DNA of 50,688 nucleotides from an uncultured Pelagibacteraceae bacterium (lineage in GTDB: Bacteria > Pseudomonadota > Alphaproteobacteria > Pelagibacterales > Pelagibacteraceae): positions 1-50,688 of the forward strand of contig CACFVO010000005.1 of NCBI GenBank assembly GCA_902569785.1, given 5' to 3'. Both the position numbers and the translations under genes were made by a program. The first letter of the stretch is position 1. Every line of letters starts with the position of its first letter. The notes beneath the pieces are model-generated. The model worked only from the letters and a program-made list of their open reading frames with translations. It ran no database searches and was not told the DNA's origin. Shown in pieces: positions 3,990-6,595 of the stretch.

Positions 3990-5825
3990 ATGGAAAAAAA
4001 TTTATATATTGATGCTTCGCATCCAAATGAAACTCGTATTGTTCTCAAGTCTAACTCCTCAATTGAAGAATATGAGTTTGAAGATAAAAATAAGTTAAAT
4101 TTTAAAAATAATATTTATCTAGGAACTGTTAGTAGAATAGAACCTTCGCTACAGGCTGCATTCATTAATTTTGGAAGGATTAGACATGGTTTTTTGGCTT
4201 TTAACGATATTCAATCAAATTATTATCAAATTCCCTCTGAAGATAAAGAGAGAATTAGAGATGCTGAAGAAAAAATAAGAGAAAATCTAAAAAATAAAAA
4301 CTTGGAGGAGACATCAGATGAAACTTCTAAAGAAGAAAGTAACAATAGATCGTCAGAAGTAAATGAAGAAGATAAAAATTTAGTTAAAAATGATGAAGAT
4401 AAAAAAAAAGAATATAGAGAAGAATTAAAAACTTCATATGGTCTTAAAAGATATAGAATACAAGAAGTTATAAAACCGGGCCAAGTAATATTGATTCAAG
4501 TCATTAAAGAAGAAAGAGGTCAAAAAGGAGCAGCTCTTACAACTTTTATATCTTTGGCTGGAAAATATATAGTATTAATGCCCAACACTCCCAAAGGCGG
4601 AGGAATATCAAGAAAAATTTTTAACTCTTCTGACAGACAAAAAATGAGAGGTATTTTAAACCAAATTGAAATTCCAAAAAGTATGGGAATAATAGTCAGA
4701 ACTGCCGGTGCTAATAAAACAAAAAATGAGATAGAAAAAGATTTTCATAATACCTTAAAAACTTGGGAAGAAATAAGGGATAAAGCTTTAAACTCTAATG
4801 CGCCATCTTTAATATATGAAGAGGGTGACATCATTAAACGTACCATAAGAGACACATACGATAATGAAACAAAGAATGTTTATATTGATGGCAATGAAGC
4901 TTACCAAAAAGCAAAAAAATTTATGAAAGAATTGATGCCTAAAAGTGTAAAAAATATAAAAAAATACAGAGGAAAAATTCCTCTTTTTCATGATGCAAAC
5001 ATTGAGAAGGAATTAAACAATATCTTTGAGCCTACAGTTAAATTAAAATCAGGCGGGTATTTAGTCATAAATCCAACTGAAGCTCTTGTGGCAATTGATA
5101 TAAATTCTGGACAATCTACTAAACAAATCAATATAGAAAAAACAGCATTAAATACAAATCTTGAGGCAGCTGAGGAAATATCTCGCCAGATAAAACTCAG
5201 AGACTTGTCTGGTTTAATTGTTATTGATTTTATAGATATGATGAATTTTTACAATAGAAGAACTGTAGAAAAAAAAATGAGAGAAAGCATAAGAAAAGAT
5301 AGAGCCAGAATTCAAGTTGGTAAGATTAGTAATTTTGGTTTATTGGAAATGACAAGACAAAGGCTACGAGAAGCCTCAATAAATTGGGAAACTATATTAT
5401 CTTTAGAGTCTTTTGCTCAAAAAATTATAAAAAAAATTGAACTTTTTGCTTTTAATAATAAAGTAAAAATTATCAAGGCTTTCATGCCAGAAAAGGTAAA
5501 ATTATATATAGAAAATAGACTTTCAAAAGAAATTGAGTATTTTGAAAAAAAATACGCATTCAAAATTAATTTATTAGCAAATGCCAAACTAATTATTCCT
5601 GAATATAAAATTGAACTTTTAAATAAGTCAAAAAAAATTATTAATACAATAGAAAATATTGATAAAAAAAATGTTTTTGAAGACACTTCAAAAGAAAATA
5701 AAAAACCGTATAAATCTAAAAGTGATACTAAAATAAATATAAAAAAATTAAAAAAGAATAAGATTATAAAAAAGAAAATTAAGAAACCACGAACATTGTG
5801 GTTCAGAAGAAAAAAAATAGCTTAA
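3990..5825 (+). CDS. rne: Ribonuclease E/G family endoribonuclease
   Basis: Endonuclease for mRNA decay and rRNA/tRNA processing. The 611-residue protein starts [19 protein letters not shown]; an S1-type region ([21 protein letters not shown], about residues 41-61) is interrupted by a long acidic and basic insert (about 90-150), as in alphaproteobacterial RNase E. Two metal-binding aspartates fit the DNase I-like core: D370 (VAIDINSGQ) and D413 (VIDFIDM), 43 residues apart, the same spacing as E. coli D303/D346. After EMTRQRL the usual CPxCxG zinc-link is missing and the sequence passes directly to the small domain. The long degradosome scaffold is absent; only a Lys-rich tail follows. The stop interlocks with that of thiG. 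Confidence 0.93.
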
Positions 5826-6595
5826 ATCAAACCATCAGTTGGGGAGCTAGGTGATGCAAAATAGTTTTTTTTCATTCTCCCTGCTAGATAAGAGTCTCTT
5901 CCAGAAATAACCGCGTTCTTAAAAGCCCTCGCCATTTTAATTGGATTTTTTGAATTTGCAATTGCACTATTTATTAAAACACCATCACAACCCATTTCCA
6001 TTGCTATAGTGGCATCAGATGCTGTTCCAATTCCAGCATCTACAATTACAGGAACTTTTGATTGTTTGATGATTAAAGAAAGATTAACTTTATTTTGTAA
6101 GCCTAACCCTGAGCCTATTGGAGATGCTAAAGGCATAATTGCTGAGGCACCAAAATCCTCTAATTTTTTGGTTAATAAAATATCGTCAGTACAATAGACC
6201 ATCACTTTAAAACCCTCTTTAACAAGAATTTTCGTTGATTTAAGGGTTTCAATCATATTTGGATATAAAGTTTTTTTGTCACCTAAAACTTCTAATTTTA
6301 CTAATTTCCATCCACCCATTTCTCTTGCCAATCTTAATGTCCTTAAAGCTTCTTCTGAAGTAAAGCATCCAGCAGTATTGGGTAAATAAATAATTTTTTT
6401 GGGGTTAAGATAGTCTGTTAAAATTGGTTTTTTTTTATCAAGAATATTTACTCTTCTCACAGCAACTGTAACCATGTCCGCTCCAGATTCTTTTACTGCT
6501 TGAGCTGTTTCTTTAAAATTTTTATACTTGCCCGTTCCAACAATTAATCGAGATTTTAATCTTTTATTAGCAACTTTAAAAATATCTTTTTGCAA
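5822..6595 (-). CDS. thiG: Thiazole synthase
   Basis: Forms the thiazole phosphate ring of thiamine from deoxyxylulose phosphate, dehydroglycine and ThiS-thiocarboxylate. The 257-residue TIM-barrel protein carries [10 protein letters not shown] near its start, TVAVRRVNI, the Schiff-base lysine segment KLEVLGD, and the phosphate-binding [14 protein letters not shown] and GVLINSAIA motifs. It lies one base downstream of thiS, so the two are cotranscribed. The gene order suggests retention of the thiazole branch; nothing here speaks to the pyrimidine branch (thiC). There is no room for a TPP riboswitch upstream of the pair. Confidence 0.97.

Follow-up and report, generated by a model that had tools for sequence, protein, structure and literature searches.

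The RNase E of the SAR11 order lacks the zinc-link between its large and small domains

Can an RNase E dispense with its zinc-link? In Escherichia coli, each RNase E protomer carries one CPxCxGxG motif between its large and small domains, and a pair of these motifs shares one zinc. The window analyzed here, a stretch of 50,688 nucleotides of contig CACFVO010000005.1 from an uncultured Pelagibacteraceae bacterium, encodes an RNase E for which a preliminary description had reported that the link cysteines are missing, that the segment following EMTRQRL is shortened and that the oligomeric state may differ, on the grounds that the link holds the E. coli tetramer together. In E. coli, mutation or deletion of the link yields no tetramers and substantially reduces activity (PMC2631609). 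The argument from E. coli needs refining: within the principal dimer, it is the shared zinc that connects one protomer to the other, whereas the small domains join dimers to one another, and the interfaces formed by the DNase I subdomains and by the small domains are themselves hydrophobic (PMC2631609, PMC4435900, PMC3997798). When the link is disrupted in E. coli, an artificially held tetramer preserves activity (PMC12510024), which indicates a structural role for the zinc.

An intact RNase E without link cysteines

The features of the rne gene and its product are collected in Table 1. PF10150 (RNase_E_G) matches residues 188-458 (E 1.1e-99, 333.7 bits against a Pfam cut-off of 25.5) and TIGR00757 scores 473.8 bits against a cut-off of 325.95, with a match that stops at position 385 of 415. 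The NCBIfam RNase E equivalog NF008074, a model of 1068 positions, yields 396.7 bits and remains under its curated cut-off of 908, to which the short C-terminus would contribute. Sequence alignment to the PDB matched residues 3-80 and residues 154-547 to chains of E. coli RNase E, and between these two stretches lies a charged insert in the S1 domain. Inserts of this kind are known from alphaproteobacterial and plant RNase E, and PMC4245959 describes the S1 insert as the sole significant deviation of the catalytic domain. With a pN/pS of 0.58, the SAR11 insert changes almost as quickly as the C-terminal tail (0.64).

The catalytic machinery is retained, as the preliminary description had stated for the aspartate pair and for EMTRQR. 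Asp370 and Asp413, which we take to be the equivalents of E. coli D303 and D346, respectively, are 43 residues apart and both align with the conserved Asp pair of the E. coli enzyme. Arg237-Thr238 aligns with R169/T170, which function in 5'-monophosphate sensing in E. coli RNase E (PMC2631609). The protein contains no cysteine, residues 459-474 included, and none of its four histidines (residues 11, 66, 253 and 334) lies near the junction between the domains. At the 3' end, a convergent minus-strand gene (5822-6595, putative thiG) overlaps rne at positions 5822-5825, where the TAA stop codons of the two genes meet.

The window's genome, an assembly that is 75.6% complete, contains a single RNase E/G-family match, which is rne. 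Its complete relatives G212, G315 and G401 likewise have one RNase E/G match each, and the SAR11 protein must therefore do the RNase E work of the cell.

Table 1. Features of the rne gene in the window (111 refers to the distinct sequences of the order described in the text)
Feature	Positions	Strand	Basis
rne, RNase E, 611 aa	3990..5825	+	intact ORF, no frameshift; PF10150 and TIGR00757
Charged S1-domain insert, ~residues 87-150	4248..4439	+	E. coli alignment jumps from 80 to 154
Arg237-Thr238, 5'-monophosphate sensor, equivalent of E. coli R169/T170	4698..4703	+	alignment; invariant 111/111
Asp370, catalytic Mg ligand by homology	5097..5099	+	E. coli alignment; invariant 111/111
Asp413, catalytic Mg ligand by homology	5226..5228	+	E. 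coli alignment; invariant 111/111
EMTRQR, residues 453-458, end of DNase I subdomain	5346..5363	+	sequence read
Junction, residues 459-475, 11 residues shorter, no Cys/His	5364..5414	+	alignment, conservation
Trp466 codon	5385..5387	+	Trp invariant in 111/111 order sequences
Small domain, residues 476-545, retained, highly divergent	5415..5624	+	PF20833, AlphaFold2, structural match
Lys-rich variable tail, residues 546-600, replaces long degradosome scaffold	5625..5789	+	pN/pS 0.64
C-terminal motif RTLWFRRKK, residues 601-609	5790..5816	+	pN/pS 0.20 (residues 601-610)

Distribution of the zinc-link in the order, the class and the phylum

The shortened junction is present in all of the best 80 of 180 confirmed contigs, these 80 being labeled Pelagibacteraceae, Pelagibacterales or Candidatus Pelagibacter (71 and 9 read separately). 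Among whole genomes, PF10150 matched in 98 of 121, the window's included, and junctions were read for 35 members of the window's genus group (g1, window included), for G212, G315 and G401, which belong to two further genera (g6/g7) of the same family, and for 20 members of a second family, f2, which is placed in the same order and is called SAR11 here by virtue of that placement. The same junction recurs in genomes of two families and seven genera. Merging the whole-genome set with the 71 named contigs gave 111 sequences distinct over their last 500 residues: a CxxC occurs nowhere in any of them, 62 are devoid of cysteine and 14 have a lone cysteine somewhere in residues 440-520. The nine further SAR11 sequences, read apart from the 111, agree in having no zinc-link. 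The absence of the link is a lineage trait and not an error.

The end of the TIGR00757 match was considered as a proxy for the link and rejected, as the matches of SAR11 and G232 stop at positions 387-392 but that of G142, which also has no link cysteines, runs to 414. We used instead a direct zinc-link profile of 44 columns, built from 44 of 80 Zn-bearing loci; a match to it does not display each cysteine, and the motif itself was read directly in the 80 loci. In 298 genomes of the order the profile gave nine matches at E <=0.001, all of them in DnaJ-like frames, an absent match there being also compatible with a gene missing through incompleteness. These nine frames (L270-L278) are 378-384 residues long and each carries a J-domain and three or four CxxCxGxG motifs; as they keep the motif, the loss in SAR11 is specific to RNase E.

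At the level of the class, 273 of 289 genomes (window included) match the profile at E 7.3e-10 or better. The remaining 16 comprise four genomes of the window's family, two others with a Zn-less RNase E (G142 and G232) and ten in which there is no RNase E junction to judge: G217 and G255 have no match, G154 and G268 have a junction-less fragment, and G135, G163, G313, G357, G391 and G398 have only a shorter RNase G-type protein (that of G398 runs off its contig). The assemblies of G135 and G391 (loci L229 and L230) are 2.3 and 5.1 Mb in size and 93-94% complete, and an RNase G-type protein bearing a Zn-link-like motif is all that they show; the missing full RNase E perhaps reflects assembly gaps. 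In a draw of 299 genomes from the phylum, 294 match at 5.8e-11 or better, the weaker five being the window's genome, G485, G496, G521 and G523. The loss of the zinc-link probably dates to the common ancestor of the SAR11 order as sampled, or to an earlier time.

Both other Zn-less groups have a full-length RNase E with neither a junction CxxC nor a junction tryptophan, in assemblies of 0.7-1.2 Mb. G142 and four relatives (f24; L117, L143-L147) keep the full junction length, with Gly/Ser and Ser at the two cysteine positions and a single cysteine a few residues beyond these substitutions; an RNase E gene is present in five of the six genomes of that order. G232 (f113; L130/L148), the only genome of its order here, is missing 14 residues at the junction and ends in GGWWQQK. 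The three lineages changed in different ways and by different lengths (substitution in place with unchanged length, 14 residues missing, and 11 residues missing with a tryptophan), which suggests, at the sequence level, separate events. A quick tree of the catalytic part requires three changes and gathers the 14 SAR11 rows into one group (SH-aLRT 95), with a poorly supported backbone. Its 65 rows comprise these 14, four of the five distinct f24 sequences, one f113 row and 46 Zn-bearing loci out of 80; left out were three loci that are very divergent, eleven near-duplicates or short ones and 20 of the 30 from large genomes. Placing every Zn-less row in one clade is not rejected by an approximately unbiased (AU) test (p 0.89), and the tree constrained in this way was even better than the one found by the quick search; the tentative case for separate losses thus comes from the differing sequence changes themselves.

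The junction, the small domain and how the enzyme may assemble

In an alignment of 25 representatives, compared with Zn-link-bearing alphaproteobacterial proteins, the SAR11 sequences show one gap of 11 residues that falls exactly over CPxCxGxG, so the segment is indeed shortened. By manual count, about 27 residues separate RQR from the first small-domain helix in Zn-bearing alphaproteobacteria and about 16 in SAR11. What stands in this place follows an order-wide signature, L-R-x3-[IV]-x-W-x3-L-[ST]-x2-S, in which no exception to Leu459, Trp466, Leu470 or Ser474 occurs among the 111 distinct sequences, position 464 is Ile or Val and position 471 is Ser or Thr. A tryptophan between RQR and the first link cysteine occurs in only one of the 80 Zn-link-bearing loci.

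Within the order sample, four of 17 junction columns are invariant, as are 52 of 108 in the DNase I subdomain and none of 70 in the small domain. In 600 pairs drawn at random from the 71 named loci, pN/pS came to 0.09 and 0.07 for the catalytic subdomains, 0.19 for the junction and 0.27 for the small domain, next to the values given above for the tail and the S1 insert; these ratios are rough, as synonymous differences are near saturation (0.6-0.7). The invariant columns and the low pN/pS indicate that the junction is constrained and is no decaying scar. The Trp466/Leu470/Ser474 segment is probably packed into the hinge that connects the two domains, where it would stand in for the metal staple.

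The small domain is kept in SAR11 RNase E, as judged from profile and model. PF20833 (RNase_E_G_Thio) matches residues 469-542 (E 2.4e-8, 34.4 bits against 26.8). An AlphaFold2 model of the whole protein, built from a shallow alignment of 71 SAR11 sequences, had a pLDDT of 48; a model of residues 345-556 reached 64.5 overall, with about 79-90 in the small domain and less than 50 at the junction. The top structural matches of the latter were E. coli RNase E structures (Z 12-14, rmsd 7-8 over 169-191 residues), against Z 7.2 for the best unrelated fold. The large rmsd suggests that the orientation of the domains in the predicted model is unreliable.

We favor the reading that RNase E in the SAR11 order is functional without zinc, the link having been lost and the hinge segment substituting for it, and we hold this to be probable. 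The 11 residues covering CPxCxGxG are missing, whereas the small domain is kept, as are the 5'-monophosphate sensor and the Mg-dependent DNase I site. The enzyme would most likely be a 5'-sensing endonuclease of the E. coli type, in which one protomer holds the 5' end of the RNA and its partner cuts. Judged from the retained domains, it most likely still assembles in a metal-free manner through the hydrophobic DNase I and small-domain interfaces, to which the new junction would add. Since E. coli link mutants lose the tetramer, retained assembly in SAR11 is an assumption on our part: we infer the assembly, the type of oligomer and the role of Trp466. With the small domain kept, a different oligomeric state, as raised in the preliminary description, is possible. 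The proteins of G142, its kin and G232 have no junction tryptophan, and this residue is therefore not a general replacement; this speaks against the favored reading, as do the 14 sequences with a lone cysteine in residues 440-520.

A bolder form of this proposal is that Trp466-x3-Leu470-[Ser/Thr]-x2-Ser474 forms a 'tryptophan link', a hydrophobic contact across subunits that takes over from the shared zinc. The need of this essential enzyme for zinc would then be dispensable in evolution, and small-genome alphaproteobacteria would have abandoned it as many as three times, each in a different way. We put it forward tentatively and think it rather unlikely to hold as a whole.

Loss of the staple might instead have changed the oligomer, leaving only the principal dimer, or a weak and reversible one, whose small domain has ceased to connect dimers. 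In E. coli, both the link and the small domain organize the tetramer (PMC2631609, PMC4435900), and conservation between SAR11 groups is much lower in the small domain than in the large one (22-37% against 56-69% identity). It also lacks the N-x-K-R motif, which was found in 0 of 59 SAR11 rows, 0 of 6 f24 rows and 2 of 2 f113 rows but in 65 of 79 Zn-bearing ones (duplicates kept; L101 dropped as too short). On this sequence evidence, small-domain function could be weakened. Nevertheless, the domain is under purifying selection and its fold is confidently predicted, which argues that it still has a job, and SAXS data on the catalytic regions of RNase E from five pathogens, which vary in the small domain, agreed with a tetramer in every case (PMC6538622). 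We therefore regard a dimer-only enzyme as an arguable but less than probable outcome.

Another view is that the link was simply lost under relaxed selection during genome streamlining, the junction being an ordinary linker with no replacement role. The three Zn-less groups all have small assemblies (0.5-1.3 Mb, many incomplete) and the junction is variable at 13 of 17 positions. However, by direct reading CxxCxG is kept in 50 of 55 small genomes, a set hand-picked at about 1.5 Mb or less rather than all such genomes; the exceptions are three SAR11 genomes, G142 and G232. Small genome size alone thus does not explain the loss, and Trp466, Leu470 and Ser474 are invariant in 111 sequences in which no small-domain column is. 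We consider this explanation doubtful.

Scarcity of dissolved zinc in the surface ocean provides a third candidate cause for shedding the link. Indeed, zinc in pelagic surface water is described as extremely low and the versatility of SAR11 metal uptake as minimized (PMC4771312). The same study, however, reports a ZnuA-type zinc uptake gene in 50% of its SAR11 genomes (PMC4771312), and the three or four CxxCxGxG motifs kept in nine of nine SAR11 DnaJ-like loci speak against wholesale shedding; zinc economy appears quite improbable to us. The preliminary description had also considered an error of assembly and ligands for zinc supplied from another part of the protein. Nothing was found in favor of either; the reading frame is intact, the junction is repeated in the best 80 of 180 contigs and across the order, the 111 sequences have no CxxC and the window's RNase E has no cysteine and four scattered histidines. 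We give these possibilities, and an artefact of sequencing, almost no weight.

The C-terminus and relation to other RNase E systems

The preliminary description had also noted the absence of the C-terminal degradosome scaffold. The long scaffold is missing, and short RNase E proteins (<=720 aa) have already been reported for Rickettsidae including Pelagibacterales (PMC5436854), but a conserved terminus remains. All 20 sampled f2 sequences (L061-L080) end in a GWW motif (e.g. KTGWWQK), and in the window's genus group a TLW, mostly as RTLWVRR, occurs within the last 14 residues of 87 of 88 distinct sequences, at the position of the GWW of f2; the codons of this terminus are under constraint (pN/pS 0.20) beside a fast-changing tail (0.64). 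No tryptophan is present in the last 70 residues of the three g6/g7 sequences (L121-L123, from G212, G315 and G401). GWW is the motif by which alphaproteobacterial RNase E binds PNPase, as described for Caulobacter (PMC3376730). Of 28 genomes searched, 25, the window's included, have a PNPase that scores over the cut-off; the other three, G021, G053 and G072, belong to the window's genus. A minimal PNPase contact may thus survive in SAR11, as far as the terminal motifs tell, and the TLW form might bind PNPase by analogy with GWW.

Set against the E. coli catalytic domain (PDB 2BX2, 2VMK), the SAR11 protein has the same S1-DNase I-small domain layout, Asp pair and Arg-Thr sensor, and differs in lacking CPxCxGxG, in a junction 11 residues shorter with Trp, Leu and Ser, in the charged S1 insert and in the missing long scaffold. 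With the Caulobacter-type alphaproteobacterial enzyme it has the S1 insert in common, and the GWW terminus is kept in f2. Cyanobacterial RNase E, like that of SAR11, departs from the E. coli layout of junction and small domain and is its mirror image, with the zinc-link kept and the small domain lacking (PMC10989914). RNase G-type paralogues in three alphaproteobacterial genomes (L233, L235, L236) are likewise devoid of the link; they end soon after the DNase I subdomain or bear an unrelated-looking tail, whereas SAR11 keeps the small domain. Many genomes of the class show a second RNase E/G match beside RNase E, whereas the SAR11 protein is the sole copy.

The RNase E papers covered here present the zinc-link as conserved, with the tetramer and activity dependent on it, and a 2025 paper states that CxxC (CPHC) is conserved throughout alphaproteobacterial RNase E (PMC12510024), a claim that the SAR11 proteins contradict. 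The portions of the open-access literature on the zinc-link and on Pelagibacter and SAR11 RNase E that were covered hold no statement that the link is absent in SAR11; an earlier mention is possible, as subscription reviews lay outside this coverage. Loss of the long scaffold was already known, and loss of the zinc-link, as read from these sequences, appears to be new.

In summary, the loss extends to the SAR11 order as a robust trait, the mechanism being what we infer. SAR11 bacteria are described as the most abundant heterotrophic bacterioplankton (PMC10030771). Our data caution against defining RNase E by the presence of CxxC, and equally against reading the SAR11 enzyme as one without any degradosome contact. 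The 11-residue deletion, the 14-residue deletion and the in-place loss of cysteines make up a ready-made comparison set, and the natural SAR11 RNase E makes it testable whether the shared metal is needed for catalysis, for the oligomer, or only in the context of the E. coli enzyme.
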